Shown: positions 6,626 to 24,861 of the stretch, piece after piece
Position numbering within the stretch: the stretch's first letter is position 1
How the letters are laid out: each line of letters begins with the position of its first letter
NCBI RefSeq assembly: GCF_016919245.1
Contig: NZ_JAFEJA010000001.1
Coordinates: 2,638,001 to 2,702,000, forward strand
Source: Streptomyces zhihengii
GTDB taxonomy: Bacteria; Actinomycetota; Actinomycetes; Streptomycetales; Streptomycetaceae
Direction of reading: 5' to 3'
Length of the DNA stretch: 64,000 bases
Notes under the pieces: model-generated
Database searches by the model: none
Told to the model about the DNA's origin: nothing
The model's input: the letters and a program-made list of their open reading frames with translations, nothing else
Translations under genes and position numbers: made by a program

Positions 6626-7423
6626 ATGGACAACCGCAGCAGCACCGTGAGCCTGACCACGTCGTCCGACGGCACCGCCATCGCCTGCGAACAGCGCGGC
6701 GCGGGACCGGCGTTGGTCCTGGTCGGCGGTGCCCTGTGCACCGCCGCCTCGGACGCGCCGCTGGCCGGCTTACTGGCGGCCGACTTCACCGTGTACACCT
6801 ACGACCGGCGGGGCCGCGGCGGCAGCGGGGACCGGTCCCCGTACGCCGTCGAGCGCGAGATCGAGGACCTGGCGGCGGTCGTCGCGCTGGCCGGCGGCGA
6901 GGTGATGGTGCACGGCATGTCGTCCGGCGCCGCGCTGGCCCTGCGGGCGGCCGCCGCCGGGGTCCCCGTCCGCCGGCTCTCCGTCTACGAGCCGCCGTAC
7001 GCGACCGGCCCCGAGGCCCGGACGGCCCATCTGGCCCGCACGCGGCGGCTGCGGGAGCTGCTGGCCGAGGGCCGCGCGGGCGACGCCCTGGCGGAGTTCC
7101 TGCGGGCCGTCGGGATGCCCGACGAGGCGCTGTACGGGCTGCGCCGGCTCCCCGTGTGGGCGGACATGGAGAAGCTCGCCCCCACCCTGGTGTACGACCA
7201 CGAGGTGCTGGGCGACGGCACGGTGCCGGTGGACGTGCTGGCGTCCGTGACCGACCGCGTGCTGGTCGTCGACGGCGGCGCCAGCCCCGCCCCGATGCGC
7301 GAGGCCGCCCGCAGCGTGGCCACGGCCCTCCCCCGCGCCCGCCACCGCACCCTGACCGGCCAGACCCACGAGGTGGCCCCGCACATCCTGGCCCCGGCGC
7401 TGGCGGCGTTCCTCGCGGAGTGA
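6626..7423 (+). CDS. Alpha/beta hydrolase with TTA codon
   Basis: 265-residue alpha/beta-hydrolase-fold enzyme. It has the DRRGRGGSGD oxyanion/turn motif at ~60-69, the nucleophile elbow GMSSG (Ser99), a late catalytic-Asp candidate in VLVVDGGASPAPM, and a terminal His candidate in LTGQTHEV. The substrate cannot be deduced. Codon 49 is TTA (6770-6772), a codon read by the bldA tRNA in Streptomyces, so translation may be delayed until differentiation. No strong ribosome-binding site is seen before the ATG. Two palindromes sit immediately upstream. It is divergent from the LOG gene and convergent with the sulfatase cassette, and probably part of the accessory segment. Confidence 0.9.
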   Translation: MDNRSSTVSLTTSSDGTAIACEQRGAGPALVLVGGALCTAASDAPLAGLLAADFTVYTYDRRGRGGSGDRSPYAVEREIEDLAAVVALAGGEVMVHGMSSGAALALRAAAAGVPVRRLSVYEPPYATGPEARTAHLARTRRLRELLAEGRAGDALAEFLRAVGMPDEALYGLRRLPVWADMEKLAPTLVYDHEVLGDGTVPVDVLASVTDRVLVVDGGASPAPMREAARSVATALPRARHRTLTGQTHEVAPHILAPALAAFLAE

Positions 7424-7631
7424 GGCGTCCGGATCCGGAGCGCCGCGAGCCGGAGCGCCCCGGCGCCGAAGCGCCGCCGAAGTCCTGGAGCACCTCGGCT
7501 CCGCAGCGCCGAAGCACCGCAGCGCCGAAGGACCGAAGCGTCACGAGCCGCGGCACCACGAGCCGCGGCCTCACGGGCCGAAGTGCCGGCCCCGGCGGGC
7601 CCCGGCGCTGCACGGCGGTGTACGGCGCGGC

Positions 7632-9741: not shown

Positions 9742-11478
9742 TCAGCGGCCGGCGGGTGTCCGGAGCACCAGGGGCACCTCCTCGCCCGGCCGGACGACGA
9801 CGGTCTCCCCGGTCCGCACGGTGGCCCGGCCGTCGGCGTAGGTGGTCCCGCGGACGGTGAACCGGAGCGGCTCCCTGCCCTCGCGCAGGGTGGCCAGCGG
9901 CGCGTCCACCTCGTCCAGCCAGCGGATCAGATCGCGTCCGAGGCGCTGCACCTGGTCCGGCCGCTCGCCCGCGAGGTCGCGTGTCTCGCCGATGTCGGTG
10001 GCCAGGTCGTACAGCTCCCAGGAGCGGTCCTCGTAGGAGTGGACCAGCTTCCAGCGGCCGGAGCGGATCACCGACTGCGGACGCTGGTCGCGGTCGCCCG
10101 CGATCAGGTAACCGGGCAGGTGCCAGAAGATCGCCTGCCGGCCGAGCCCGGCGCCGTCGCCGGCGAACAGCCCCTTCAGGGACACCCCGTCGACGGGCCG
10201 GGCGGCAGGCGCGGCCCCGGCGAGCGAGGCGATGGTGGCGTGGTGGTCGGCGGCGTACACCGGCGTGTGGTCGATCCGGCCGCCCTTCACCAGGGCGGGA
10301 TTGCCGCTCCAGGCGATCAGCGGGACGCGGATGCCGCCCTCCCGGAGCTCGCCCTTCTGGCCGCGCAGCGGGCCGTTGTCGGTGAAGTTCTCCACTCCCC
10401 CGTTGTCGGCGGTGAAGACGACGACGGTGTTGTCGGCGAGCGGGTGGCCGGGGTTGCGCGGGTCCGGGGTGGTCTCCAGGTGGCGCACCACCCGGGCGAC
10501 GCTCTGGTCGAGGCCCTCGACCAGAGCCCCGTACGCCGGGTTCGACGTGCTCGTACCCGGTGTCTTCGCCTTGTACGTGGCCAGCAGGTCCTTACGGCCC
10601 TGCGCGTCCCCGACCGGGGTGTGGACGGCGTAGGGGCTCAGGAAGGCGAGGAAGGGGTCCTGCTTGTTGCGGTCGACGAAGTCGATGGTGGCGTCGGCCA
10701 GCGCGTCGGAGACGTGCTTGTCCGTGCCCACCAGCGCGTCCAGCGCCGCCGGGTCGGTGCCCGCGCTCCAGGGGCGGATGTTCTCGTCGACGTAGGCCCG
10801 GGTGTAGTCGCCGGCGAAGGCGTCGAGGGCGGGGCCGATCTTCGGGCCGAACTGCCCGTCCTTCGCGTGGTAGGCGCCCGGGTCGCCGCTGGCCTGGCCG
10901 CCGATGTTCTCGTCGAAGCCGTGCTGCGCGGTGATGGCCTCGGCCGTCCGCGTCACATGGAACTTCCCGAGGTACCCGGTGGTGTACCCGGCGCCCTGGA
11001 GGCGCTCGCCGAAGGTGACGGCCTCCGGGGGCAGTGCGGTGGCGCCGTCGGGACGGCCCTGGGCGGGGCCCTTGAGCAGGGTGTCGTCGCCGCCGCGGTT
11101 GAGGTCGCCGACGAGGTAGATGTTGTTCTCCGCCCGGGGGGCGTAGAGCCCGGTGAGCAGGGCGGCACGGGTCGGCGTGCAGTTCACGGACGTGTACGCG
11201 TTGTCGAAGGCGACGCCCTCGCGGGCGATCCGCTCCAGGGCCGGTGTCTCGTAGAAGTCGCTGCCGTTGCCCTGGTTGGTGAGCGGGCTGCTCGTGCTGG
11301 TCCAGCCGAAGTCGTCGGCGAGGACGTAGACGATGTTGGGCCGCGGCGCCCGGGGCCCGGCGGCGCGGTCGACTCCGGGGGTGGCCGCGGCGGGCGCGCT
11401 GAGCGTCGTGAGCGTGAGGATCGCGGGGAGGGCGAGCAGGCCGAACGGGCGTGATCGTCGGGTGGGTCGGCTGGGCAT
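9742..11478 (-). CDS. Secreted sulfatase
   Basis: 578 residues with an N-terminal Arg-rich signal peptide (RRSRPFGLLALPAILTLTTLSAPAAA). The sulfatase fold begins at PNIVYVLADDFG (two metal-binding Asp), the modification signature is CTPTR with Cys100 as predicted formylglycine, and GKFHVT and FTADNGG supply the later active-site and calcium ligands. The C-terminal region ends with a short beta-rich stretch. It probably removes sulfate from an extracellular polysaccharide or small ester; the substrate is not evident. It lies 134 bp downstream of the FGE gene and 85 bp upstream of the second sulfatase, all on one strand, so one transcript is likely. Confidence 0.92.
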   Translation of the reverse strand: MPSRPTRRSRPFGLLALPAILTLTTLSAPAAATPGVDRAAGPRAPRPNIVYVLADDFGWTSTSSPLTNQGNGSDFYETPALERIAREGVAFDNAYTSVNCTPTRAALLTGLYAPRAENNIYLVGDLNRGGDDTLLKGPAQGRPDGATALPPEAVTFGERLQGAGYTTGYLGKFHVTRTAEAITAQHGFDENIGGQASGDPGAYHAKDGQFGPKIGPALDAFAGDYTRAYVDENIRPWSAGTDPAALDALVGTDKHVSDALADATIDFVDRNKQDPFLAFLSPYAVHTPVGDAQGRKDLLATYKAKTPGTSTSNPAYGALVEGLDQSVARVVRHLETTPDPRNPGHPLADNTVVVFTADNGGVENFTDNGPLRGQKGELREGGIRVPLIAWSGNPALVKGGRIDHTPVYAADHHATIASLAGAAPAARPVDGVSLKGLFAGDGAGLGRQAIFWHLPGYLIAGDRDQRPQSVIRSGRWKLVHSYEDRSWELYDLATDIGETRDLAGERPDQVQRLGRDLIRWLDEVDAPLATLREGREPLRFTVRGTTYADGRATVRTGETVVVRPGEEVPLVLRTPAGR

Positions 11479-11612: not shown

Positions 11613-12623
11613 TCAGAGGGCGTCGTTGGCGCAGCGGAAGCCGATGTTCGCCGCCGCCGAATCGGCGGTGTTGCCGGAACGGGCGGCGACCCGGTAGCGG
11701 TGGCAGTAGGAGTCGTGGCAGAGGTACGAGCCGCCGCGCATGACGCGCTGCGCGTCATGGCCCGGGTCGTGCCACGGGCCGCGCGGGTCGTGCACCGGCG
11801 CGGCACCGGCACGCGCCGCGTAGGCGTCGGCGGCGAAGGTGTCGGCGCACCACTCCCAGACGTTGCCGACCGTGTTCCACAGCCCGTGGCCGTTGGGACG
11901 GTAGGACGTGACCGGTGCGGTGGTCTCGTGACCGTCCTCGGCCGTGTTGAGGGTGGGGAAGGTGCCCTGCCAGATGTTGCACATCCACCGTCCGCGCGGA
12001 GTGAGTTCGTCGCCCCACGGGAAGCGCCGGCCCTCCAGACCGCCGCGCGCGCCGTACTCCCACTCGGCCTCGGTCGGCAGCCGCTTCCCGGCCCACGCGC
12101 AGTACGCCTGGGCGTCGTTCCAGCTGACCTGCACCACCGGGTGGTTCTGGAGGGTGCCGGCGGACGAGAGCGGTCCGGCGGGGTGGCGCCACGAGGCGCC
12201 CCGCACCACCAGCCACCAGGGGGTGCCGGCGGCCCGGCCCAGCACGTCCCCGGGCTCGGCGCGCACCGCGAGGTGGAACACGGCGGACATGCCCAGCCGT
12301 TCGGCGTCCGTGACGTAGCCGGTGTCCTTGACGAAGGCGGCGAACGCGGCGTTGGTGACCGTGGCGGCGTCCATGAGGAACGGGTCGAGACGGACCTGGT
12401 GCACGGGCCCCTCGCCGTCCGCCGCGTATCCCTCGCCGAAGCCGTCGCCCATGGCGAACGTGCCGCCCGGCAGGCGCACTTGGCCCCGGGTGCCGCGCCG
12501 GTCCGCGGCCGGGCGGAACGGACCGGGAGGGGCGGCACCGATGGAACCGATCAGCACGCCGCCGGCGCCGGCGGACGCGTGGCAGCGGCCGTGGCCGTCG
12601 GCTGACGGGACGCAGCAGGACAT
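11613..12623 (-). CDS. Formylglycine-generating enzyme (SUMF1/FGE family)
   Basis: 336 residues from the ATG at 12623, which gives the MSCC start common in actinobacterial FGEs. FGE is a copper-dependent oxidase that converts the Cys of C-x-P-x-R in sulfatases into formylglycine, the catalytic aldehyde. Conserved FGE blocks are clear: LPGGTFAMGD, NHPVVQVSWNDAQAYCAWAGKRLPTEAEWEY, GNVWEWC, and the active-site segment GGSYLCHDSYCHRYR with the copper-binding Cys302 and Cys307. The C-terminal IGFRCA motif is present. Its two presumed clients, both with canonical C-x-P-x-R motifs, lie directly downstream. The gene is unlike its flanking core genes in position and looks like part of an inserted cassette. 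Confidence 0.95.
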   Translation of the reverse strand: MSCCVPSADGHGRCHASAGAGGVLIGSIGAAPPGPFRPAADRRGTRGQVRLPGGTFAMGDGFGEGYAADGEGPVHQVRLDPFLMDAATVTNAAFAAFVKDTGYVTDAERLGMSAVFHLAVRAEPGDVLGRAAGTPWWLVVRGASWRHPAGPLSSAGTLQNHPVVQVSWNDAQAYCAWAGKRLPTEAEWEYGARGGLEGRRFPWGDELTPRGRWMCNIWQGTFPTLNTAEDGHETTAPVTSYRPNGHGLWNTVGNVWEWCADTFAADAYAARAGAAPVHDPRGPWHDPGHDAQRVMRGGSYLCHDSYCHRYRVAARSGNTADSAAANIGFRCANDAL

Positions 12624-13404
12624 GGCGGGGCTCCATGGGTCGGCGGAAGGGGACACATGGCCCCCACCGGGCACGCGCACGGTGCCGTCCGCCCCACCGC
12701 CGCGGCGGCCCCGGAGCGGGGCACGGCAGGCGGGTGGGCGGTGCGCGGACGCGGCGGCCCGGCGGAAGGGCACGGGACGGAAGGCGGACGGGCTACGGCG
12801 AGCGCGTCGGCGTCACAGGAACGGCGGGACGGACACCCAGGGGGTTTTCGCCGGGGTCTTCGTCGGCCGTGTCACGGGGAGCAGCCCCGAGGGCACCCGC
12901 GAAAGGGGCCGGAGGCTGTGGAGAACGAGGTGCTCAGCGACAGATCTGGTCGAAGTGGTCGGCGCGGCGGCTGGGCCAGAAGGGGTCCAGCGGCACGGTG
13001 TGACCTGTGTGGGCACTCCTCATGCCGGAGATGACACCACGTCACCCTCCGCACCGCAACGCCCTGTCCGTCCCCTGAGACCCTTCGTCCCGGCATGCGG
13101 CGGCCCGGCGCCGCATGCCGGGCAGAGCTGCGCGGAGGTCAGCCGGGGTGGGCGGCCGGCCGGAACCGCGCCCGGGGTCCGGCCGGGCGGACGGTCGGCC
13201 GCGACCCGAGGGTGCCGGGGCGCCGGGAGCGGATGGCCGGCCCGGACGCGGCAGGGCTGTGGCCCCGGGACGGGCGGCCGGGACCGGGCCGATCGACCGG
13301 AGCGGGCGTCGGGCCGATCCACCGGAGCGGGCGCTCCATCGCGCCCCGACAGGGTGCGTCCGCGGCGTCGGCGTGCCTCGCGGCGTCGGGACGACGCGGC
13401 CGCC
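12624..13404. other. 781-bp intergenic region upstream of FGE
   Basis: No gene could be supported. Short frames exist on both strands (for example minus 12813-13016, 67 codons) but lack a ribosome-binding site and recognisable protein features. The left half, less GC-rich at about 12840-13020, is where the promoter of the FGE-sulfatase cassette would lie. The right half carries a strong hairpin (listed separately) and low-complexity GC-rich sequence after mnmA. Confidence 0.45.
13089..13122. terminator. 14-bp perfect hairpin downstream of mnmA
   Basis: Arms CCCGGCATGCGGCG and its complement flank a 6-nt loop. It lies ~280 bp past the mnmA stop on the minus strand. No T-run follows. It is a plausible terminator or insulating structure between mnmA and the FGE cassette. 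Confidence 0.45.
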
Positions 13405-14529
13405 TCAGACCGACGCCGTCGCCCGCCGCGTCGTCGCGATCGTGGCGGAGCCGACGACCCGCGTGCCGTCGTAGAGGACGATCGCCTGGCCGGGGGCGAC
13501 GCCCCGCACCGGCTCGCCGAAGGAGACCCGGAGCTCGGCGCCGTCCACCAGCTCGGCCGTGACCTCGGTCTCGCCGCCGTGGGCGCGGAGCTGGGCCGTG
13601 TACGTGCCCGGGCCGGCCGGGGGCGCCCCGCACCAGCGGGGCTTGATCGCGGTGAGGGCGTCGACGTCCAGCGCCTCGGCGGGGCCGACGGTGACGGTGT
13701 TGTCGACCGGGGAGATGTCCAGGACGTAGCGCGGCTTGCCGTCGGGCGCGGGGTGGCCGATGCGCAGGCCCTTGCGCTGCCCGATGGTGAAGCCGTAGGC
13801 GCCCTCGTGGGTGCCGAGCTTCGCGCCCGCCTCGTCGACGATGTCGCCCTCGGCGCGGCCGAGGCGGTTCGCCAGGAAGCCCTGGGTGTCGCCGTCGGCG
13901 ATGAAGCAGATGTCGTGGCTGTCGGGCTTCTTGGCCACGGCCAGGCCCCGGCGCTCGGCCTCCGCCCGGATCTCGTCCTTGGTGGTGAGGGTGTCACCCA
14001 GCGGGAACATGGCGTGGGCGAGCTGCTTCTCGTCCAGCACGCCGAGCACGTACGACTGGTCCTTGGCCATGTCGCTGGCCCGGTGCAGCTCGCGGGTGCC
14101 GTCGTCGTTCAGCACCACGGTCGCGTAGTGGCCCGTGCACACCGCGTCGAAGCCCAGCGCGAGCGCCTTGTCGAGGAGCGCGGCGAACTTGATCTTCTCG
14201 TTGCAGCGCAGGCAGGGGTTGGGCGTGCGCCCGGCCTCGTACTCGGCGACGAAGTCCTCGACGACGTCCTCACGGAAGCGCTCGGCGAGGTCCCACACGT
14301 AGAAGGGGATGCCGATGACGTCGGCGGCCCGGCGCGCGTCGCGCGAGTCCTCGATGGTGCAGCACCCGCGGGCGCCGGTGCGGAAGGACTGCGGATTCGC
14401 GGAGAGCGCCAGGTGCACGCCGGTGACGTCGTGCCCCGCCTCGGCTGCGCGGGCTGCGGCGACGGCGGAGTCGACACCGCCCGACATGGCGGCGAGGACG
14501 CGGAGGGGGCGCTGGGGGGTCTCAGTCAT
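13405..14529 (-). CDS. mnmA: tRNA-specific 2-thiouridylase MnmA
   Basis: 374 residues from the ATG at 14529; upstream codons in frame are not protein-like. MnmA adenylates and thiolates U34 of tRNA for Lys, Glu and Gln to give 2-thiouridine, receiving sulfur that starts at a cysteine desulfurase. The PP-loop [12 protein letters not shown] is near the N-terminus, [14 protein letters not shown] supplies the first catalytic Cys, GHYA follows, and [11 protein letters not shown] the second Cys of the persulfide pair. The IGQRKGL segment and the C-terminal beta-barrel are also typical. A cysteine desulfurase gene, the probable sulfur donor, is found 6.5 kb away, with the amidase gene and accessory genes between them. 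Confidence 0.96.
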
Positions 14530-14590
14530 AGCGCTACCAGGGTACGGGGCCCGGGGAACCGAAAGCTCGTGAGTATGCGTTGTGGTCGGC

Positions 14591-15295
14591 ATGGGGAGCG
14601 AGAGCGGTCGCGGCAGCCGGAAGAAGCCCGCGGAGAAACCGAACATGACCAGGCGCGCCGTGCTGATCGGCGGCGGCGCCGCGGTGGTGGGCGGCGGGAT
14701 CTGGGCCGAGGAGGAGATCCGCCGGCTGTGGCGCGGCATGCCCTGGGTGCGCCCGCCGCGCAAGGAGGGCGAGCTGGACTTCGCGGGCGCCCAGTGGGTC
14801 TCGGCGAACGCGGCGAACTGGCGGCTGGCCTGGCGGCCGGACGACTACGAGATCGACCGGGTCGTGATCCATGTCGTGCAGGGCAGCTACGCGACGGCGC
14901 TGAAGGTGTTCCGCGACCCCCTGCACAAGGCGGCGACCCACTACGTGGTGCGCAAGGACGGTCACGTCGCGCAGATGATCCGGGAGTACGACGTCGCCTA
15001 CCACTGCGGCAACCGCTCCTACAACGAGCGCAGCATCGGCATCGAGCACGAGGGGTTCGTCGACCGGCCCAAGGACCTCACGGACGCGATGTACGCCGGT
15101 TCGGCCAGGCTGACGGCCGACATCTGCGCCCGTCACGACATACCGGTGGACCGTGAGCACATCGTCGGCCATGTGGAGATCCCCGGCACCGACCACACCG
15201 ACCCGGGCCCGCACTGGGACTGGGACCGCTACATGAAGCTGGTGGGCGAGGCGCTGCCCGAGGCGAAGCGGGCCGCGGAGGCGCGCAAGGCCTGA
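14591..15295 (+). CDS. Exported N-acetylmuramoyl-L-alanine amidase (PGRP/Amidase_2)
   Basis: Zinc amidase that cleaves the bond between N-acetylmuramic acid and L-alanine in peptidoglycan. A twin-arginine signal, [17 protein letters not shown], lies at the N-terminus. The amidase domain shows VVIHVVQGS (first zinc His), [20 protein letters not shown] and [14 protein letters not shown] (later zinc His and partner). The start is uncertain: GTG 14582 and ATG 14591 lack clear ribosome-binding sites, whereas ATG 14645 has GGAG nine bases upstream and puts the RR pair almost at the N-terminus. It is divergent from mnmA, whose start is ~60 bp away, so the two share a promoter region. Confidence 0.92.
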
Positions 15296-15306
15296 CACGA
15301 GCCCGG

Positions 15307-15340
15307 CGCGGGGCGTTCCGGTGGCCCGGACCGCCCCGCG
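15307..15340. terminator. Bidirectional terminator-like hairpin
   Basis: Perfect 9-bp arms CGCGGGGCG/CGCCCCGCG with a 16-nt loop, between the convergent amidase and small secreted protein genes. Confidence 0.5.
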
Positions 15341-15359
15341 AGGGTCCCTGCGGGGCCGC

Positions 15360-15596
15360 TCAGTAGCGGACCCACAGGACGTAGACGTCCGGTCTCGTCG
15401 GGAAGGGCTCGCAGAAGTAGATCAGGCCCCACAGGTGCCGCCCGGCCTGGCCGGCCGCGTCGCACTCCGCGAGCGAGGCATGGTGGCTGCGGGCGTAGGT
15501 CCCGGGGGGTGCGGCGGCGGCCGGTGCGGCGGTCGTGCCGATGGCGAGAAGACAGGCGGCGGCCGTGACGACGGCTCCGGCGATGCGACGGTACAC
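15360..15596 (-). CDS. Small secreted protein of unknown function
   Basis: 78 residues. The start is GTG 15596, chosen because AGGAGG lies eight bases upstream. A signal peptide (VYRRIAGAVVTAAACLLAIG...APAAAA) is followed by a mature chain of ~49 residues containing two Cys (SLAECDAAG and IYFCEPF) that could form one disulfide, and a Tyr/Trp-rich end (RPDVYVLWVRY). No family is recognised. The size and two-Cys pattern recall small extracellular Streptomyces proteins such as inhibitors, but that is only an impression. It is the first gene after the amidase and marks the left end of the accessory segment that continues to ~21 kb. Confidence 0.75.
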   Translation of the reverse strand: MYRRIAGAVVTAAACLLAIGTTAAPAAAAPPGTYARSHHASLAECDAAGQAGRHLWGLIYFCEPFPTRPDVYVLWVRY

Positions 15597-16410
15597 GCGT
15601 CTTTCCTCCTGGTCGTGCCGGGTCGTCCCGGCGGCGGAAGATACGAGGTGTGACGAGGCGTTTCCGTACGGCTGCGCAGCCGGGGCCAACGTAGCGCCGG
15701 GCACCCGCGGCACACAAGGTCTAGACCAAGGGTCGGACGGGGTGCGGCGGGGCCAGGATGCCCGGAGCCCGGCACCGTGCCGCCGCTCGCCGGCACGGCG
15801 TCCCGCCGCCGCGCCGTCTCCCGCCCCCACGGACGCGCACCGGGCACGCAACGCACGGGCGACGGACGGACGCCGGACGGGCACCTCGCCTGAGGCGCCT
15901 TCTCGCCAAAATGACCGCCCACAGGACCGCCCGCCTGGTGAGAGCGGGAGGGAAGGGACTCCTGTGCACACGCCGGGCCGCCGCCGGCAGGGCCCGGCCG
16001 GTCACGCCCCTCGACGGACCCGGCCGCCCGGATAACCGCGTTCAACTGGGGATTCCCGTCCGCACCCGCATGCGGGACCCGCACGGAACGGACAGCCGGA
16101 TCCTCCCGCGCGTACACGGCGCATTCATCAGGCCATCGCCCGCACGGCCGGGCGGAAGGGGAATCACCCTGTTGACCGGCCGGGTCCGTGACGCCTTCAA
16201 TACCGGCAGCGCCAGGCGCCGGAGCCGGTCGGATTTCGCCTCGGGGATTCCCCCGCGGTGGCCGCCTCCTCGCGTCCGCGCTTCGGTTGTCCGCTCATGA
16301 GGTACGTGCACCGCCGCGATAGTGAGTCGTGCTCGCACCCGTTCCTCGTGACGCGTGCGCCGGCCCGATTCCTCATGTCCGGAGGGCGCGTTCCCGGAAA
16401 TGGAGGAGCA
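15597..16410. other. 814-bp intergenic region upstream of the peptide precursor
   Basis: No gene could be supported. A short palindrome GGTCTAGACC lies at 15718-15727. The right part (16190-16410) is less GC-rich and should carry the promoter for the precursor gene. Frames crossing it lack ribosome-binding sites. Confidence 0.45.
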
Positions 16411-16779
16411 ATGAGACCCGTCGATCCCCAGCGCTATCTCGCCTATCTGGCGACCCTGGCCGCCGGTCTGACCGCACCGGCCCTCGCGGCCGGTGCGGCC
16501 CACGCCGCCGCCGCGCCCGCTCAGCCCGCGCAGACGGTCGCCGTCTCCGACTCGGCACGGGCGACGCTCGCCGCCCAGTCGGCGGAGGCGGACCAGGAGG
16601 CGCTCTCCGCCGACGGCCTGTACTCGCAGTTCAACGAGATCTACAACAGGGTCTACAACGAGGTGATCAACCCCTACCTGCAGCGGGTCCAGCCGTACCT
16701 CCAGGGCTTCACCCCTGCCGAGTCCGGGAGGACGGCCGCCGACGCGCCGCTGAGCCGGATCCTCGACGACCTGTCCTGA
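16411..16779 (+). CDS. Putative RiPP precursor peptide with aromatic three-residue motifs
   Basis: 122 residues. The ATG at 16411 follows GGAGGA five to ten bases upstream; the frame is open further upstream but not protein-like. Residues 9-36 are hydrophobic and Ala-rich and look like a signal peptide or leader. Residues 48-68 are a charged linker. Residues 71-100 hold seven aromatics, six of them in Y/F-x-[Q/E/R] triplets: YSQ, FNE, YNR, YNE, YLQ, YLQ, the last two inside a repeated PYLQ. Such triplets are typical substrates of radical SAM enzymes that make three-residue cyclophanes. A radical SAM/SPASM gene lies 123 bp downstream. From memory this resembles the AmcA family of multiply cyclophane-modified precursors, but no search was possible. 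Confidence 0.72.
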   Translation: MRPVDPQRYLAYLATLAAGLTAPALAAGAAHAAAAPAQPAQTVAVSDSARATLAAQSAEADQEALSADGLYSQFNEIYNRVYNEVINPYLQRVQPYLQGFTPAESGRTAADAPLSRILDDLS

Positions 16780-16902
16780 TCTCACCCGCCGGTGCCCGTA
16801 CCGGCGGCGTTCACCAGGCACCGAACCGGGTGCGGACCGCGTCCGCCGGCCGCATCCGGTGATCCGCGTTCCTGACATCCCTACGTGCGAGGAGGCCGGC
16901 GA

Positions 16903-18078
16903 GTGGCGAGGGAAACGAAGAGACAGGTCCAATTCGTCGTCAAGATATCCAAGTTCTGCAATCTGCGATGCTCGTACTGCTACGAGTTCGCCGACCTCGG
17001 ACAGCGCGAACGGATGAGCCGGGAACAACTGCGTTCCATGTACGTGCACATGCGCGACTACTACGTGGAAAGGGACCGGGAGGACGGTGCGCGCACGCAC
17101 GTCCACATCGTCTGGCACGGCGGCGAACCGCTCATGATCGAACCGGAATACTATTGGCAGAGCCTGGACGACCAGCGTGAAATCTTCGGTGACGCGCTGA
17201 CGGTGAGCAATTTCGTCCAGACGAATCTCACCGTCCTCGACGACGAACGGATCAGACTCCTGAAGGACGGATTCGACCATGTCGGCGTCTCCGTCGACCT
17301 CTTCAGCGGACTCCGCGTCAACATCGCCGGCCGGGACCAGCAGAGCAAGGTCGTCGCCAACATGGAGCGGCTGCGGTCCGAAGGGGTGCAGTTCGGCTGC
17401 ATCACCGTGCTCACCCGGCGGAACCTGCGCAGGGTGAAGGACACCTTCGCCTTCTACGAGAAGGCGGGCATCGGCTTCCGGGTGCTCCCCCTCTTCGACG
17501 GCGCCTACGACGACCAGCACCTGGCGTACGACATCACCGTGCCGGAGATCGTCTCCGCGCTCAGCGAGATGGCCGACCTCTGGCTGGAGAGCGACACCCC
17601 GGTGCAGGTCTCCCCGCTGGACAGCCACTTCCAGATCGTGCTGCGCCACCTCAACCCCGACGCCCCGCGCGTGTACTTCAACCAGCGCGAGTGGATGTCG
17701 GTCATGGTCGTCGACACCCCCGGGGACGTCTACGCCTACGGAGACCCCTACGAGGACCCCGACGCCTGTCTCGGCAACATCTTCACCACCCCGATCGGAG
17801 AGCTGCTCTCGGGGTCACGCTTCGAGGCATCGGCCGTCGCCGCAGAGTCCCGGATGGCCGCGAACTGCCTGAACTGCAAGTACTTCGGCGCGTGCTCCGG
17901 CGCACCCATCGCGAGCAACCGCGACAACGTGCACACGGTCGTCGACGGCATCGCCGTCTGCGACGTCGAGCGCGCCGTGCTGGAACACATCGAGCACCGG
18001 CTGCGGAGCAGCGACGTCGTCGACCCCGACGGACGGATCAGGGCGGCGTCGGCACCCGCCGTCGATCCCGTCGCCTGA
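16903..18078 (+). CDS. Radical SAM/SPASM peptide maturase (cyclophane-forming type)
   Basis: 391 residues from GTG 16903, preceded by GGAGG. A longer start at 16885 would include the ribosome-binding site and is less likely. The radical SAM motif is CNLRCSYC (Cys19, Cys23, Cys26), which binds the [4Fe-4S] cluster that cleaves S-adenosylmethionine. The GGEPL segment (HIVWHGGEPLM) contacts SAM. The C-terminal third has a SPASM domain: DACLGNI, NCLNCKYFGACSGAP and VCDVERA supply Cys ligands for auxiliary clusters. Proteins of this layout install C-C or C-S crosslinks in ribosomal peptides. With the aromatic-rich precursor just upstream, the likely reaction is crosslinking of Tyr/Phe rings to nearby side chains. 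From memory the closest described type is AmcB; assignment is tentative. Confidence 0.88.
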   Translation: MARETKRQVQFVVKISKFCNLRCSYCYEFADLGQRERMSREQLRSMYVHMRDYYVERDREDGARTHVHIVWHGGEPLMIEPEYYWQSLDDQREIFGDALTVSNFVQTNLTVLDDERIRLLKDGFDHVGVSVDLFSGLRVNIAGRDQQSKVVANMERLRSEGVQFGCITVLTRRNLRRVKDTFAFYEKAGIGFRVLPLFDGAYDDQHLAYDITVPEIVSALSEMADLWLESDTPVQVSPLDSHFQIVLRHLNPDAPRVYFNQREWMSVMVVDTPGDVYAYGDPYEDPDACLGNIFTTPIGELLSGSRFEASAVAAESRMAANCLNCKYFGACSGAPIASNRDNVHTVVDGIAVCDVERAVLEHIEHRLRSSDVVDPDGRIRAASAPAVDPVA

Positions 18079-18084
18079 CGGCGG

Positions 18085-18678
18085 ATGGACGGCGGCAGGG
18101 GCGGCCCGCCCCGCGATCCCTTCGAGGTGACGGTCACCGCGGCGGACGGCCCCCGCTCCCCCGTGCCCGACCCGCCGTTCCACGACGCCGCACCGCTGGT
18201 CGCCGTGACCCTGGAGACCATGCCGGACGCGGACTCAGGGCAGGCACCCCTGCCGTTCCTGTACCTCGACCTGGACGGTCTGCCGGGCTCGGCGGCGATC
18301 GTCCGGGGAGACCGCATGCCGGGCACGGCCCTGGAGAAGGCGCTGACGCTGTTCGTCCACAGCTCCGGCAACGGCTACGTCGGCATCACGGTCACGGAAC
18401 GCGCCACGGAGCCCGCTGCCTCGGGCCCCGCCCCGCGCGTCCTGCGCGTGGCCGTCGACCCCGTCCGGCACGCGGCGGGCCTCGCGGCCGCCGTCCGCGG
18501 CGGGCGCCTGGTGGTGGCCCACCTCCGGACGTCACCGACGGGTGAGCGCCGCCGTTCCCTGCTTCCGGTCGACGTCGACGGCCGCCTGCTCGAACGGATC
18601 GTCCACGCGGCGCTGACGCATCCGCGGCGGGTGCGGGTGGGGCTGGGAGGCGCGATGCCCCGCTCCCTCGCCCCGTAG
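18085..18678 (+). CDS. Hypothetical protein coupled to the radical SAM maturase
   Basis: 197 residues, starting 6 bp after the maturase stop, so translation is probably coupled. Third-position G/C bias is strong, which supports a real gene. No domain is recognised. The chain is mostly beta-rich with conserved-looking hydrophobic stretches (APLPFLYLDLDGLPGSAAIV, LTLFVHSSGNGYVGITV, RLVVAHLRTSP), no signal peptide and no membrane segment. Position suggests a role with the peptide cluster, such as precursor recognition, a partner of the maturase, or immunity. None of these can be chosen from sequence alone. Confidence 0.7.
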   Translation: MDGGRGGPPRDPFEVTVTAADGPRSPVPDPPFHDAAPLVAVTLETMPDADSGQAPLPFLYLDLDGLPGSAAIVRGDRMPGTALEKALTLFVHSSGNGYVGITVTERATEPAASGPAPRVLRVAVDPVRHAAGLAAAVRGGRLVVAHLRTSPTGERRRSLLPVDVDGRLLERIVHAALTHPRRVRVGLGGAMPRSLAP

Positions 18679-18679
18679 G

Positions 18680-18710
18680 TTGACCCTCTACCTGGTGCAG
18701 GGCCCAGGGT
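18680..18710 (+). promoter_or_regulatory. MerR-type promoter with 19-bp spacer
   Basis: TTGACC (18680-18685) and CAGGGT (18705-18710) are separated by 19 bp, the long spacer characteristic of MerR-controlled promoters. The outer ACCCT/AGGGT arms form a short dyad. It directly precedes a MerR-type gene and suggests autoregulation. Confidence 0.5.
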
Positions 18711-18729
18711 CATGGGTGTGGAGAGCGAG

Positions 18730-19812
18730 ATGCGCAGTATCGGCGAGATGGCCGGGGACAGCGGGCTGAGCGCGAGTGCGCTGCGGTTCTACGACCGGTC
18801 CGGGGTCCTCGTGCCCGCGTGGGTGGATCCGCTGAGCGGCTACCGGTGGTACGAGCCGGGGCAGCTCGACGAGGCCAGGGTGCTGACCCGGCTGCGACGG
18901 GCCCAGATGCCGCTGGCCGACATCAGGCTGGTGCTGGCGGGCTGGTCCGGCGCGGACACGGAGCTGGTCCGGGGGCTGCTGGAAGCCCATCTGCGCCGGC
19001 TCGAAGAGGGCCTTGCCGACGCCCGCACCGAGTTCTCCGCGATCCGAGCGCTACTGGACGACAGGGAGAACCTCATGACCTCACTCGGCACCGCCGCCCC
19101 CGTACGCGTCGGCGTCCCCGCCGACCGTCTCGCCGCGGCCCTGGACGCGGTCCGCTTCGCGGTGGGCACCGACCCCGCGCTGCCGGTGCTCGGCGGGGTG
19201 TTGTTCGACGTGGAGGGCGACGCGCTGCGGGTCGTGGCGACCGACCGCTACCGGCTGGCCGTCGCCGAGACGGGCACCGAGGGCCACGGCGGCGACCGGG
19301 TGCAGGCCCTCGTCGACGCCCCGCTGGTCGACGCGATGCGGGCACTGCTCCGCGGCGAGGGGACCGCGCAGCTGACCGTCGACGGGGACAGGGTGTCGCT
19401 GGAGACCGACGGCGGCCAGGCGGGCGGGCAGCGCCTGGAGCACGAGTTCCCCGACTACCGGCGTCTCGTCCAGCTCCCGGCCGGCCGCACCGCCGTCGTG
19501 GACGTCGCCGCCTTCGGCGAGGCCCTGCGGTCCGGCCCGGTGCGCGACCACGAGGACTCCGAGCGGAGCGGCGTCTCCTACGAGGTGAGCGTCGTCGCGG
19601 TGGACGGCGGGACGGTGACGGTCCGCGGCGAGGGTGACGAGGACGAGCACCGCGTCGGCGTGAACCGCGCCTATCTGCTGGACGCGCTCGCCGCCGGCGC
19701 CCGGGACCGGCTCGTCCTGGAACTCGGCGCGCCCACGGCCCCCGTGGTGATCCGGCGTCCGGACGACGCGGGCACGTACTCGCTGCTGATGCCGGTCCGC
19801 CTGGAGGGCTGA
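18730..19812 (+). CDS. MerR-type regulator fused to DNA polymerase III beta (sliding clamp)-like domains
   Basis: 360 residues from ATG 18730, chosen because GGAG lies six bases upstream and because the predicted promoter would place an ATG at 18712 upstream of transcription start. Residues ~1-115 are a MerR DNA-binding domain (RSIGEMAGDSGLSASALRFYDRSGVL, GYRWYEPGQL) with a coiled dimerisation helix. From ~residue 125 the chain resembles domains 2 and 3 of the beta sliding clamp: DPALPVLGGVLFDVEGDALRVVATDRYRLAV, then HEFPDYRRLVQ, and VGVNRAYLLDALAAG near the end, followed by a TYSLLMPVRL tail like that of DnaN. The clamp-like part may act as a dimerisation or sensor module. Its ligand is unknown. 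Confidence 0.85.
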   Translation: MRSIGEMAGDSGLSASALRFYDRSGVLVPAWVDPLSGYRWYEPGQLDEARVLTRLRRAQMPLADIRLVLAGWSGADTELVRGLLEAHLRRLEEGLADARTEFSAIRALLDDRENLMTSLGTAAPVRVGVPADRLAAALDAVRFAVGTDPALPVLGGVLFDVEGDALRVVATDRYRLAVAETGTEGHGGDRVQALVDAPLVDAMRALLRGEGTAQLTVDGDRVSLETDGGQAGGQRLEHEFPDYRRLVQLPAGRTAVVDVAAFGEALRSGPVRDHEDSERSGVSYEVSVVAVDGGTVTVRGEGDEDEHRVGVNRAYLLDALAAGARDRLVLELGAPTAPVVIRRPDDAGTYSLLMPVRLEG

Positions 19813-19966
19813 GCCAGGCCGTCCTCCGTACGTGTACGGCCGTTGTACGGGTGCGATGACGTGTCCCGGGCGTTCCGTGCCGCGTTGAGCACTGCCCCGG
19901 CACCCTGCGTGACCCACGCCGTGTGCCGGGGTGGCGGCGTACGCGGGGACGGGAGACGGGAAGGAC

Positions 19967-20824
19967 GTGAGGGCGGTGCGCGAGACGCGGAACAGCCGTA
20001 CGGCGAAGGAGAAGGCGGAGGGCGGCGATCTGCCGGGGGTGTGGTCCGCCTACGGCAAGCTGCTCCAACACCTGCGCAAGCGGGCGGGCTTGAGCCAGCA
20101 GATGCTCGCCGAGGCGATCGGCTACTCACAGGAGCAGGTCGCCTCGGTGGAACAGGGACGCCGTCCGGCGAAGACGTTGTTCACCACGGCGGCGGACCGG
20201 GTGCTGGAGGCACGGGGCGTGCTGGAGGTGCTCCAGGACGACGTGGACCGGGCCAAACTGCCGCAGTTCTTCCGGAACTTCGCGCTGATCGAGGCGGAGG
20301 TGGTGAGCCGCTTCTCCTACGATCCGCTGCTGGTGCCGGGGCTGTTGCAGACGGAGGCGTACGCGCGCGCCGTGTTCGCGGGGCACTGCCCGCCACTGAG
20401 CGAGGAGACGGTGGACCAGCACACGGAGGCCCGGCTGAGCCGCCAGAAGCTGCTGACGCGGGTGCCACTGGCGGAGCTGTCGTTCATCGTGAGCGAGGAG
20501 GCGTTGCGCGATCCCGTGGGCGATGCCGACGTGATGCGCGGCCAGTGGCGCCGCATCCTGGAGGTCGGTGCCGTGCGGAACGTGGCGATCCAGGTCATGC
20601 CGGCGGGCCGGGGGTTCCATCCGGGCAAGAACGGCGGCTTCGTGGTCGTGGAGACGAACGACCACCGCCACCTCGGGTACTTCGAGTCCCAGGGAGTCGG
20701 CTGCGTCGTGCAAGGTGCGGCCGAGGTCAGCGCCTTCGGTCTGCGCTATGGCAAGCTGCGATCGCAGGCCCTGAACGTCGAGGAGTCTGCGCGGCTCGTC
20801 GAACGGATGGTGGGAGAGACATGA
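19967..20824 (+). CDS. XRE-family regulator with DUF5753 domain
   Basis: About 285 residues. Start is uncertain among GTG codons at 19931, 19967 and 19976; 19967 follows GGAAGGAC closely. The N-terminal helix-turn-helix reads LQHLRKRAGLSQQMLAEAIGYSQEQVASVEQGRRPA. The rest is the DUF5753 domain (FALIEAEVVSRFSYDPLLVPGLLQTEAYARAV). This architecture, followed by a small DUF397 protein, is a multi-copy regulatory pair in Streptomyces (WhiJ/BldB-associated type) that influences development and antibiotic production. The DUF397 gene overlaps by ATGA at its end. The specific targets are not evident. Confidence 0.92.
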   Translation: MRAVRETRNSRTAKEKAEGGDLPGVWSAYGKLLQHLRKRAGLSQQMLAEAIGYSQEQVASVEQGRRPAKTLFTTAADRVLEARGVLEVLQDDVDRAKLPQFFRNFALIEAEVVSRFSYDPLLVPGLLQTEAYARAVFAGHCPPLSEETVDQHTEARLSRQKLLTRVPLAELSFIVSEEALRDPVGDADVMRGQWRRILEVGAVRNVAIQVMPAGRGFHPGKNGGFVVVETNDHRHLGYFESQGVGCVVQGAAEVSAFGLRYGKLRSQALNVEESARLVERMVGET

Positions 20825-21027
20825 GCGCGAAGCAGGCGGCCGGCAACCTGGACGGGCTGCGGTGGTTCAAGAGCAGCCACAGCGGGTCGGACGGCGGGGA
20901 CTGCGTCGAGGTCGCCGCCGCCGTGGACGCCGTGTACGTGCGCGACTCGAAGACCGCCGGCGGCGGCCCGCTGCTGCGGGTCGGCCGGGGCGAGTGGGCC
21001 GCGTTCGTGGCGGCGGCCGCCGCGTAA
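20821..21027 (+). CDS. DUF397 small protein
   Basis: 68 residues. ATG overlaps the stop of the XRE gene by four bases (ATGA), so translation is coupled. The DUF397 hallmarks are present: LRWFKSSHSGSDGGDCVEVA and VYVRDSKTAGGGPLLRVG, then a WAAFVAA tail. DUF397 proteins are the usual partners of XRE-DUF5753 regulators in Streptomyces. It converges with the cysteine desulfurase gene with only 9 bp between them. Confidence 0.94.
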   Translation: MSAKQAAGNLDGLRWFKSSHSGSDGGDCVEVAAAVDAVYVRDSKTAGGGPLLRVGRGEWAAFVAAAAA

Positions 21028-21036
21028 CCCGTCCCG

Positions 21037-22200
21037 CTACGTCAGCCCCGCCGAGCGGGCCCGCTCGACCGCCGGGCCGATGGCGTGGGCGACGGCGTCG
21101 ACGTCCGCCTTGGTGGAGGTGTGGCCGAGGCTGAAGCGCAGGGTGCCGCGGGCCAGGTCGGGGGCGGTGCCGGTGGCGAGGAGGACGTGGCTGGGCTGGG
21201 CGACGCCCGCGGTGCAGGCGGAGCCGGTGGAGCACTCGATGCCCTGGGCGTCGAGGAGCAGGAGCAGCGAGTCGCCCTCGCAGCCGGGGAAGGCGAAGTG
21301 CGCGTTGGCGGGCAGGCGGTCGACGGGGTCGCCGCCGAGGATGGCGTCCGGGACGGCCTCGCGGACGGCGGCCACCAGGCTGTCGCGCAGCGCGCCGACC
21401 TCGCGGGCGAACTCCTCGCGGCGCTCGGCGGCGAGCCGGCCGGCGACGGCGAAGGCGGCCACGGCCGGGACGTCGAGCGTGCCGGAGCGCACATGGCGCT
21501 CCTGGCCGCCGCCGTGGAGCACGGGGACGGGGCTGTACTCGCGGCCGAGCAGCAGCGCGCCGATGCCGTACGGGCCGCCGACCTTGTGACCGGAGACGGT
21601 CATCGCGGCGAGCCCGGAGGCGGCGAAGTCGACGTCGAGCTGGCCGAACGCCTGGACGGCGTCGGCGTGCAGGGGGACGTCGAACTCCTTCGCGACGGCG
21701 GCGAGCCCGGCGACCGGGAAGACCGTGCCGATCTCGTTGTTGGCCCACATGACGGTGGCCAGGGCGACGTCGTCCGGGTTGCGCCCGATGGCCTCGCGCA
21801 GGGCGTCCGGGTGGACCCGTCCGAAGGCGTCGACCGGCAGGTACTCCACCGTGGCGCCCTCGTGCTCGGCGAGCCAGTCCACGGCGTCGAGCACGGCGTG
21901 GTGCTCGACGGGGCTGGCGAGGACGCGTGTCCTCGCGGGGTCGGCGTCGCGGCGGGCCCAGTAGAGGCCCTTCACGGCCAGGTTGTCGGCCTCGGTGCCT
22001 CCCGAGGTGAGGACGACTTCGCTGGGCCGGGCACCGAGGGCTTCGGCGAGGGTTTCGCGGGACTCCTCGACGGTACGGCGGGCCCGGCGGCCGGCGGCGT
22101 GCAGTGCGGACGCGTTGCCGGTGACGGCGAGCTGGGCGGTCATCGCCTCGATCGCCTCCGGAAGCATCGGAGTGGTCGCGGCGTGGTCGAGGTAAGCCAT
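21037..22200 (-). CDS. Cysteine desulfurase (NifS/IscS family)
   Basis: 387-residue PLP enzyme that takes sulfur from L-cysteine as an enzyme persulfide, for tRNA thiolation and Fe-S clusters. Class V aminotransferase features: [13 protein letters not shown] start, [42 protein letters not shown] and the PLP-lysine in [10 protein letters not shown]. The mobile catalytic Cys is in [11 protein letters not shown]. The most likely partner in this neighbourhood is MnmA. In the S. coelicolor genome these genes are close to each other, from memory; here an accessory segment lies between. It converges with the DUF397 gene. Confidence 0.95.
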
Positions 22201-22457
22201 GGTGGCCCCGATTCTACGAGGCGCGCCGAGGGCGCGGACGCGGCGCAGGGGCGCACGCGTGTTCCGGCTGCGCGCCGGGGTGCGAAGACGGGTCGCGCCG
22301 GGGGTCCGTAGGGGTCCGGGCGGGCCGTCGCGGAAGGCGTGTGCGGAGGGCCGGCCGGCGCTGAAAGGCGTGCTGCGGCGGGCGGCTCGACGCCCGGGCG
22401 CCGGGGCCGGGGGGCGGCTCTCCCCCGGGTGCGGCGGGCGCGCCGCGCGGCGGCCGG

Positions 22458-22829
22458 TCAGCCGCCGAAGCCCCAGACGACGGAGCCGTTCGCCGTGACC
22501 AGGACGGCGAGGACCACGAGGTCGGCGACGCCGAGCCCGAGTCCGAGGAGGGCCCGGCCGCGGCGGGCGGTGCCGCGCAGCAGGGCGATCGAGGCGAGCA
22601 CGATCGCGATCGGCCCGAGCACGATGTTCATCACGAGCAGACCGGTGAGGCCGAGCACGAAGGCCGCGACGGCCATGCCGTCGGTGTCCCGGGTGCCGGA
22701 CGGACCTGGGGCCGGGGCGGGTGCGGCGGCGGGCTCCTGGGGGCGCCGCTCGGGAGCGCCGTCCGCAGGGGTGGAGCGCCGGTGGCGGTCCGGGCCCGCG
22801 GTGGGCCGGACGAGGGTGTCGATACGCAT
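22458..22829 (-). CDS. DUF4190-type membrane protein
   Basis: 123 residues. An N-terminal ~50-residue Pro/Ala-rich, probably disordered cytosolic part is followed by two membrane segments typical of DUF4190 ([35 protein letters not shown] and [16 protein letters not shown]) with an [12 protein letters not shown] loop. Function unknown. It lies 26 bp downstream of a smaller membrane protein gene on the same strand, so they are likely co-transcribed from the region shared with the divergent TetR gene. Confidence 0.82.
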
Positions 22830-22855
22830 GGGGTGCTTCTCCTTCCGTTCGAGGG

Positions 22856-23038
22856 TCAGCCGCGCCGGGCGGCGCGGCGCTCGCGCACGGCGAAGGCGAT
22901 CAGCCAGCAGCCGATCGCCGTGCCGGCCACGAGAGATACGGGAGCGGGGAGTTGGACCACGGCGCCCAGCATGATGCCCATGACGAGGAGCGCGGCGACG
23001 ATGACCATCACGGTCGTCCTTCCGGTGGACGAGTGCAT
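22856..23038 (-). CDS. Small two-helix membrane protein
   Basis: 60 residues from ATG 23038; an in-frame ATG at 23083 would add 15 residues. Two membrane segments ([22 protein letters not shown] and [18 protein letters not shown]) precede a short Arg-rich tail. No family recognised. It is divergent from the FabR-like TetR gene, and the repeats in the shared region suggest it may be that regulator's target. Confidence 0.7.
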
Positions 23039-23051
23039 TTGGGAGTACGTA

Positions 23052-23107
23052 TGTTCACTGACCGCTGAGTCTACTCTTCCCAATTCGAGATAACGGTTGT
23101 TTACTGA
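23052..23107. promoter_or_regulatory. Direct repeats in TetR/membrane protein divergent region
   Basis: TGTTCACTGA (23052-23061) and TGTTTACTGA (23098-23107) differ at one base and are 46 bp apart. They flank the less GC-rich stretch where both divergent promoters must lie. Candidate binding sites of the adjacent regulator. Confidence 0.35.
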
Positions 23108-23112
23108 ATGTC

Positions 23113-23727
23113 ATGAGTCACACCGTCGGCATCCGTCAGGCCCAGAAGCAGAAGACCCGTCAGGCCCTGCTCGACGCCGCGCTGCGGCTGCTGGAGGACC
23201 AGAGCCTGAGCAGCGTCGGGCTGCGCGAGGTCACCCGGGCCGTGGGGGTCGCGCCGACCGCCTTCTACCGGCACTTCACGGGCATGGCCGATCTCGGCGT
23301 CGCCCTGGTCGAGGAGGCGCTCGGCTCGCTGCACGCGACGATCGGGGAGGCGCTGACGGAGCCCGCGGACGAGGACCGCATCGACCGCACGGTGGCGCTC
23401 GTGGCGGAGCTGGTGCGCACCTCACCCGCGCATGTGCGCTTCGTGGCACGGGAGCAGCACGGCGGCGTGGCGGCCGTGCGCGCGGCGATCGGCGAGCAGC
23501 TCAGGCGGTTCGCGGACGAGGTGGCGGCGGTGTTCGCGGCCGAGCCGGAGTCGGCGGGCTGGAGCGGGGACGATCTGGAGATGCTGGCCGGGATGTACGT
23601 CGACCACATGGTGATGATCGCCTCGGCGTTCCTGGAGGCGGGCCCCGAGGGCGAGGAGCGGGTCAGCGCGCTGGCGCGGCGCAGGCTGCGACTGGTGAGC
23701 CTCGGACGCCGGCACTGGCTGGACTGA
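23113..23727 (+). CDS. TetR-family regulator, FabR-like
   Basis: 204 residues. The N-terminal helix-turn-helix reads RQAQKQKTRQALLDAALRLL...LREVTRAVGVAPTAFYRHFTGMADLG, which closely follows the pattern of E. coli FabR (REVAREAGIAPTSFYRHF). The C-terminal ligand domain ends in ARRRLRLVSLGRRHWLD, comparable to the FabR end. FabR-type repressors sense the balance of saturated and unsaturated acyl chains and control membrane lipid genes. The divergent small membrane protein and nearby thioesterase fit a lipid theme, but the targets are inferred. ATG 23113 is the only good start. Confidence 0.88.
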   Translation: MSHTVGIRQAQKQKTRQALLDAALRLLEDQSLSSVGLREVTRAVGVAPTAFYRHFTGMADLGVALVEEALGSLHATIGEALTEPADEDRIDRTVALVAELVRTSPAHVRFVAREQHGGVAAVRAAIGEQLRRFADEVAAVFAAEPESAGWSGDDLEMLAGMYVDHMVMIASAFLEAGPEGEERVSALARRRLRLVSLGRRHWLD

Positions 23728-23744
23728 CCGGCGGGGGCCCGGAG

Positions 23745-23883
23745 GCGCGGGCGGTGGCCGACGGCACGGGCGGCGCTTGCGGGGACCGGAGGCGCGGGCG
23801 GCGACCGGAGGCGCGGGCGGCGCATGCGGTGACCGGCCGCGCGGGCGGTGACCGGCCGCGCGGGCGGTGACCGGCGGCACGGG
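23745..23883. repeat. 19-bp GC-rich tandem repeats
   Basis: Three head-to-tail copies of CGGTGACCGGCCGCGCGGG (23827-23845, 23846-23864, 23865-23883, the last diverged) follow earlier related units of the form CGACCGGAGGCGCGGGCGG. They lie between the convergent TetR and thioesterase genes. Confidence 0.65.
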
Positions 23884-23982
23884 CTCGGGCGGCCCCGCAC
23901 ACGGCAGCCAGGAGGCGTGAACCCGGACGCGGCCGCGCCCCCGGCCGGTCTCGGACGGGGGCACATGGCACGAAGGCGTGCG

Positions 23983-24861
23983 TCAGGCGGTGCGGGGCGC
24001 CTTGGCGAGCTGGCGGGACTGGGCGACGAGGCGGTCCGCGGAGTCCCAGACCTCGGCGTCCTCCTCCAGGAAGCCGCCCGCCAGGTTGCGGGTGGTGATC
24101 GCGACGCGCAGCGGACCGGGCGCGGGGCGGCAGCGCACGTGGGTGGTCAGCTCGACCGTCGGGGTCCAGCCCGTGAGGCCCAGCTCGAACGAGGTCGGCG
24201 GCAGCGCGTCCACCGTCAGCAGCAGCGACAGCGGGTCCGCGTCACGGCCGTCGGCCAGGCCGAACCAGCCGCGCATCTCGCCCTTGCCGGAGGGGGCGCC
24301 GATCGCCCAGCCGACGGTCGCCGGGTCGAGCCTGATGTCCAGCCGCTCCGTGATGGCGGAGCTGCCGGGGATCGGGGCCGGGCCGTCCGAGGGGCCGAAG
24401 CAGTGCTCGATCGGGGCGATCGCGGGCGGCTTCGCCGTGGTGCGCACCTCGCCGGGCAGCGCGTCGAGGTCGCCGTAGGTGGCGAGGACGCGGATGCGCT
24501 CGACCTCGGTGCCGTCCTCCTCGAACTGGAGGAGGGACGCCTGGCCGGTGGAGAGGGTGCGGCCGGTGCGGACGACCTCGGTGCGGATCACGGCGGGGCC
24601 GGGACGGGACGCCGTGAGGTAGTGCGCCGACACGGAGAAGGGGTCGGGGTGCGGGAGGGCGTCGCCGAGCGCGCGGCCCAGCATCGCGAGGAGGTAGCCG
24701 CCGTTGACGGCGTGGATGATCGTCCAGCCGGCCGAGAGCTCCGCGTCGTAGACGCCGGGCTCGCGGCGGGTGACCGCGGTGTCGCGGTCGAACTCGCTGT
24801 CGCCGACGGTCGCCTGCGCGGAACGCGCCGCGGGCGCCGCCGTCTGCACTGCCTCTGCCAT
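23983..24861 (-). CDS. Acyl-CoA thioesterase family protein
   Basis: 292 residues from the ATG giving MAEAVQ. Double hot-dog thioesterase (TesB/Acot type, thioesterase-like superfamily): VYDAELSAGWTIIHAVNGGYLLAMLGRAL matches the N-terminal hot-dog helix, PDPFSVSAHYLTASRPGPAVI the first-strand region, and LTGWTPTVELTTHVRCRPAPGPL the second domain. It probably hydrolyses acyl-CoA esters in the cytosol; chain-length preference is unknown. It is convergent with the FabR-like regulator and lies 22 bp downstream of the TRIC channel gene, so it may be co-transcribed with that gene. Confidence 0.85.
   Translation of the reverse strand: MAEAVQTAAPAARSAQATVGDSEFDRDTAVTRREPGVYDAELSAGWTIIHAVNGGYLLAMLGRALGDALPHPDPFSVSAHYLTASRPGPAVIRTEVVRTGRTLSTGQASLLQFEEDGTEVERIRVLATYGDLDALPGEVRTTAKPPAIAPIEHCFGPSDGPAPIPGSSAITERLDIRLDPATVGWAIGAPSGKGEMRGWFGLADGRDADPLSLLLTVDALPPTSFELGLTGWTPTVELTTHVRCRPAPGPLRVAITTRNLAGGFLEEDAEVWDSADRLVAQSRQLAKAPRTA

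Follow-up and report, generated by a model that had tools for sequence, protein, structure and literature searches.

A three-gene cassette in Streptomyces zhihengii with the features of a triceptide peptide system

We describe a cassette of three genes in a stretch of 64,000 nt from the genome of Streptomyces zhihengii (NZ_JAFEJA010000001.1, 2,638,001–2,702,000). We call this stretch the window and use its numbering for positions. The genes code for a precursor peptide, a radical S-adenosylmethionine (SAM) enzyme, which we call the maturase, and a third protein (gene 3), which starts after a 6-bp gap from the maturase stop. They probably form a new family of ribosomally synthesised and post-translationally modified peptides (RiPPs) of the triceptide type, in which the precursor would be crosslinked into three-residue cyclophanes. 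A first-pass annotation of the window had reported the three open reading frames (ORFs), the gap, a CxxxCxxC motif and a precursor of 122 residues: all of them are confirmed by the sequence and by their joint recurrence in other genomes, and the interpretation given there, a crosslinked peptide product, is supported.

The core of the precursor contains six triplets made of an aromatic residue, a variable residue and Gln, Glu or Arg (Table 1). All six aromatic positions stay Phe, Tyr or His, and the +2 residue stays Gln, Glu or Arg at every triplet, in the 12 distinct precursors. The region had been described as aromatic-rich, and its arrangement is non-random: six of the seven core aromatics have Gln, Glu or Arg at +2, with P values in shuffled 37-residue cores of 0.00011 for this offset and 0.00065 for any of ten offsets, which are post hoc values, as this residue class was picked after the sequence was viewed. 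The highest count among the ten offsets is at +2; the next one, at −2, is four. The remaining aromatic of the window core, Phe100, has Pro at +2 and is replaced by Ile in three of the 12 precursors, while position 93 shows five different residues. Such an aromatic-X-(Gln/Glu/Arg) series reads as the pattern of three-residue cyclophanes, with the repeated aromatic-X2-X3 triplets by which triceptide RiPPs are recognized. Triceptide enzymes form Tyr-Arg, His-Arg, Tyr-Asp and His-Ala links, according to the available part of PMC11002830; together with the triplets they point to links from the aromatic ring to the beta carbon at positions i and i+2. The multi-cyclophane product proposed earlier fits this pattern; the linkage itself is what we infer.

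The enzyme encoded next to the precursor has the radical SAM motif C19xxxC23xxC26 and a C-terminal domain of SPASM type, as in triceptide systems, with the cysteines of auxiliary cluster II (AuxII) only. The SPASM cysteines which had been noticed earlier are thus partly upheld: the AuxII set is present, but the AuxI cysteines of the anaerobic sulfatase maturase anSME (255, 261 and 276) have no Cys counterparts, position 335 is Pro, and the Pfam SPASM profile gives 16.0 bits vs a threshold of 21.5. By curated NCBIfam cut-offs the maturase lies outside all the named families compared. The best profile is that of the dynobactin maturase DynA (NF041298; 154.9 vs 450 bits), followed by the anaerobic sulfatase maturases (TIGR03942; 133.2 vs 349.45); scores are lower for AmcB (NF041718; 101 bits, or 89 when genomes were searched, vs 425), YhhB (NF041707; 82.9 vs 445), GrrM/OscB (TIGR04261; 81.7 vs 310) and FxsB (TIGR04269; 66.5 vs 370). 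The families AmcA/AmcB and GrrA/GrrM, suggested for comparison in the first-pass annotation, therefore do not include this enzyme. As a positive control, AmcB exceeded its cut-off in 8 of 101 Streptomyces genomes. The top-scoring profiles and the nearest solved structures, the closest being anSMEcpe, are those of enzymes which modify peptides or proteins. These results support a substrate of peptide nature, as does a relative with 43% identity encoded beside a candidate RiPP precursor with a Nif11 leader, which is described below.

The three genes are found together in five further Streptomyces loci: L003 (Streptomyces sp. t39), L004 (S. abyssomicinicus), L005 (S. fragilis), L006 (Streptomyces sp. 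CB02400; L009 and L016 are probably the same record) and L014/L008. Precursor homologues adjoin maturase homologues in these genomes, the outcome on which the first-pass annotation had staked its reading. The nearest named locus is L003, with 93% DNA identity over 4,185 bases and matches to 13 of the 14 window genes tested; L004, L005, L006 and L014 match only the three cassette genes of the 14, in the 13–16 kb fetched. Five of the eight database homologues of the precursor have Streptomyces names, as do nine of the 14 homologues of gene 3, where one cluster includes the window's own protein. Among the database records, the longest contigs are of equal length in three precursor/gene 3 pairs and two maturase/gene 3 pairs, which is consistent with linkage. 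A crude pairwise dN/dS (ratio of non-synonymous to synonymous substitution rates) for the precursor in six loci is 0.46 for the whole peptide, 0.30 for its ten C-terminal residues and 0.84 for the spacer 103–112, a moderate purifying selection. The joint recurrence and this selection on the precursor show that the precursor, the maturase and gene 3 behave as real genes.

A precursor search in 199 genomes of the genus gave two matches, S. zhihengii itself and a genome (G088) which we discounted: its match has E 3e-4, covers residues 12–71 inside a frame of 1022 aa and is accompanied by no maturase at 1e-50. At this same threshold the maturase is found in 5 of 392 genomes of the genus (its own and one with 39% identity, G060, counted) and in 1 of 396 genomes of the phylum, its own. 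A profile of the maturase family at 1e-70 detects 2 of 394 genomes of the class, S. zhihengii and G361, and a maturase search in 199 relatives of G361 found G361 alone. The latter genome has a decayed cassette (L015, 6565–6890 and 7005–8140): two reading frames are needed to cover the precursor, and likewise the maturase, the precursor has a stop just after the core, and gene 3 is open across the aligned part. Such decay is a hint that G361 can do without the cassette.

The maturase belongs to a wider group: 713 proteins out of 7,998 scored reach E 1e-30 or better, and they extend to cyanobacteria and myxobacteria, where they are known here as proteins alone, apart from their gene context. Radical SAM relatives were found in 57 loci of viral contigs. 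In the best two of these 57, and in a third locus with 39% identity (L013), a candidate precursor lies beside the enzyme. Upstream of the relative with 43% identity (L020) there is an ORF which encodes a Nif11 leader (Pfam 24.9 vs 23.8 bits, NCBIfam 31.9 vs 32.3); that with 32% identity (L021) follows, after 6 bp, a small ORF which has a hydrophobic segment and is rich in aromatic residues at its end; in L013 the upstream ORF is aromatic-rich and matches no family. From this thin evidence of three loci, distant maturases also appear to adjoin candidate precursors. Directly 3' of the L020 maturase there is a gene (7155–8036) for 293 aa with no Pfam match at 0.5; its product may serve the Nif11-leader RiPP as a second tailoring enzyme.

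Besides the post hoc choice of residue class, several observations weigh against a triceptide-type cassette. Four of the seven core aromatics also have Gln, Glu or Arg at −2; Tyr93 of L004 is an extra aromatic with none of them at +2; and the decayed precursor of G361 retains four of the six triplets (FGQ, HNQ, YNE and YLQ), the other two being lost. The nine aligned precursors have a mean column identity of 86%; with sequences so alike, the conservation of triplets is by itself a weak argument. The partner residues described in the available part of PMC11002830 do not include Gln or Glu. For each of the best 25 of 62 NCBIfam families the maturase stays under the cut-off, and L020, L021 and L013 have no match to the window precursor or to gene 3. 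The proposed chemistry is read from sequence.

These points leave room for other explanations. The cassette might be a true RiPP system which introduces a different change: a link from i to i+3 or i+4, a C–O or C–N link, beta-oxidation or epimerisation of the core. There are precedents for such links in the available parts of the literature, as dynobactin has one C–C and one C–N link (PMC11002830) and darobactin an ether and a C–C link (PMC9055067). DynA is moreover the nearest named profile, and the core aromatics are spaced 3, 4, 4, 7, 7 and 4 residues. The predominance of the +2 offset, a DynA score 295 bits below its cut-off and a precursor without Trp make this explanation unlikely. A still less probable one, to which we give very little weight, is that the enzyme is an oxidase similar to sulfatase maturases, acting either on the precursor, which would then be just an ordinary secreted protein, or on some other target. 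It would agree with the second-best profile, with the closest solved structure and with the secreted appearance of the precursor, as well as with a sulfatase-like ORF (named by eye; 9742–11478, − strand) which lies outside the cassette's island and is also present in L003. In the DNA fetched for L004, L005, L006, L014 and L015 this ORF was not found. The score is far below the cut-off, and the enzyme does not have the cysteines of both auxiliary clusters found in anaerobic sulfatase maturases. None of the 12 precursors has Cys. The motif [CS]x[PA]xR, which we take to be the target of sulfatase maturases, is absent from the window precursor and occurs in the linker of three of the 12 distinct precursors, so that a sulfatase-type target in the precursor was rejected.

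A triceptide-type cassette, the reading we prefer, could work as follows. The maturase would generate a SAM-derived radical in the cytosol, and the ring of a core Phe or Tyr (sometimes His) would be joined to the beta carbon of the residue at +2 (Gln, Glu or Arg), up to six times. Radical SAM enzymes act in the reducing cytosol, and the modification should therefore precede export. The N-terminus of the precursor has a basic start and then a hydrophobic stretch, the latter in all 12 distinct precursors, and Ala30, Ala32 and Ala33 are invariant in the nine aligned rows. Residues 1–32 thus resemble a Sec signal peptide: the crosslinked peptide would leave by the general Sec path and be cut by signal peptidase after AxA, leaving about 90 residues, and no dedicated transporter or peptidase would then be needed. 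The absence of both, pointed out in the first-pass annotation, is plausibly explained in this way; passage of three-residue rings through Sec is plausible. The conserved C-terminal element possibly serves in recognition.

Gene 3 would assist the maturase, for example by holding the precursor. An assistant is its most likely role because the maturase begins directly with the radical SAM domain and lacks a recognition domain at its N-terminus; the holding of the precursor is a guess. At E 0.1 gene 3 matches no family of Pfam or NCBIfam, and its structure model (pLDDT, predicted local distance difference test, 66) has no significant fold match. The main alternative within the same reading is immunity: gene 3 could protect against the peptide, whose biological activity is presumed, or be a receptor for it, or else a substrate of the maturase. 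We find these roles somewhat unlikely. Gene 3 travels with the precursor–maturase pair, its relatives are found nowhere else, and it is open in the aligned part of G361, where the other two genes are broken. Yet G361 is a single case, the strongest hydrophobic segment of gene 3 is weak (maximum 19-residue Kyte-Doolittle mean 1.14), and the protein fits an intracellular helper equally well.

Among known systems, the YhhB-type triceptides share serial aromatic-X-Arg triplets with Tyr and His as aromatic partners (available part of PMC11002830). We infer that they are one system with the precursor of Tyr-Asn-Arg/His-Asn-Arg repeats described in the part of PMC9062424 available. Our cassette differs from them by its maturase score, by partners which are mostly Gln and Glu and by a hydrophobic, signal-like N-terminus; the cluster of PMC9062424, as far as the available part describes it, has an oxidase/peptidase gene and ours has neither. 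AmcA/AmcB is a multi-cyclophane system with a cyclophane-forming radical SAM enzyme which also occurs in Streptomyces; GrrM/OscB and FxsB form cyclophanes according to their NCBIfam descriptions; in all these cases the distance in score sets our maturase apart. DynA and DarE would have in common with it the crosslinks of aromatic residues, but they differ in their cut-offs (450 and 650 bits), in the absence of Trp from our precursor and in its six short triplets. From anSMEcpe the maturase also differs in the type of substrate.

A literature search, with most subscription journals outside its coverage, found no paper on the three-gene cassette. We tentatively propose that its products are undescribed exported RiPPs of about 90 residues, with up to six cyclophanes with Gln, Glu or Arg partners, made by a maturase with a single auxiliary cluster and an orphan partner, and encoded in a mobile cassette which uses Sec and signal peptidase. 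If this is true, a compact cyclophane system would be added to Streptomyces, with partner residues beyond those listed in the available part of PMC11002830; the maturase would offer a direct test of the purpose of AuxI, and such a tiny set of three genes would be easily expressed. The cassette could also give access to a bigger group of enzymes that modify peptides, most of them unnamed, because ten further relatives sampled are all under the named NCBIfam cut-offs as well.

Table 1. Features of the cassette and its island in the window
Feature	Position	Strand	Remarks
Precursor peptide gene	16411..16779	+	122 aa, no Cys, no Trp; 8 database homologues, aligned
Signal-peptide-like segment, residues 1–32	16411..16506	+	AxA at 30–32, then Ala33
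Core, residues 71–98	16621..16704	+	YSQ FNE (I) YNR (V) YNE (VINP) YLQ (RVQP) YLQ; six triplets kept in 12/12 distinct precursors
C-terminal element PLSRILDDLS, residues 113–122	16747..16776	+	LSRILD invariant in 9/9 rows; lowest segment dN/dS
Radical SAM maturase	16903..18078	+	391 aa; radical SAM Cys 19/23/26, AuxII Cys 322/325/331/353
Gene 3	18085..18678	+	197 aa alpha/beta protein, no Cys, no family assigned; 14 homologues only
Promoter-like pair TTGACC – 18 nt – TTCAAT	16172..16201	+	ends 209 nt 5' of precursor start
Precursor ribosome-binding site GGAGGAG	16402..16408	+	from sequence; GGAGGA kept in 5/5 cassettes
Inserted island: cassette + MerR/DnaN-like gene + XRE/DUF5753 gene	15296..21036		borders adjacent in 8/8 relatives fetched

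Upstream of the precursor, the two elements of the promoter-like pair, TTGACCGG and TTCAATACC, are identical in the five aligned cassettes (window counted) with a spacing of 17–18 nt, and they presumably act as a promoter. The region of about 200 nt which follows, 16202–16401, has a patchy conservation across the five cassettes; it may be a regulatory 5' untranslated region.

The cassette is part of a 5.7-kb island inserted between two genes which adjoin in the relatives compared, an amidase (14582–15295) and a cysteine desulfurase (21037–22200). An amidase match is found in 24 of 41 genomes (own counted), and eight of the others were fetched for comparison of the borders. In all eight the amidase and desulfurase orthologues are adjacent, 12–430 bases apart (alignment ends), and mnmA flanks the amidase on its other side; the claim that the flanking genes are close together in other Streptomyces is thus correct. 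L003 has the same island borders as the window, with a match to the XRE gene limited to 35 residues. There are no convincing flanking repeats at the island ends (15200–21100) and no tRNA in 12000–24000. The maturase has no match at 1e-20 in 72,556 plasmid records, and a spread of the cassette by plasmids was rejected on this basis. The cassette looks like a compact mobile kit. Transposase-like ORFs, recognized by eye, lie near the cassette in L004 (2470–3384) and L006 (919–2553), in line with mobility.

The island also contains an odd pairing (18712–19812): a DNA-binding domain of MerR type fused to a region similar to the sliding clamp (DNA polymerase III beta), with 56 bits for Pfam DNA_pol3_beta_2 and 88.9 bits for NCBIfam dnaN, vs a cut-off of 137.65. 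This gene has matches in 6 of 41 genomes (own counted); in the other five it either lies on a different contig from the amidase or is separated from it by about 1.7 Mb or more.
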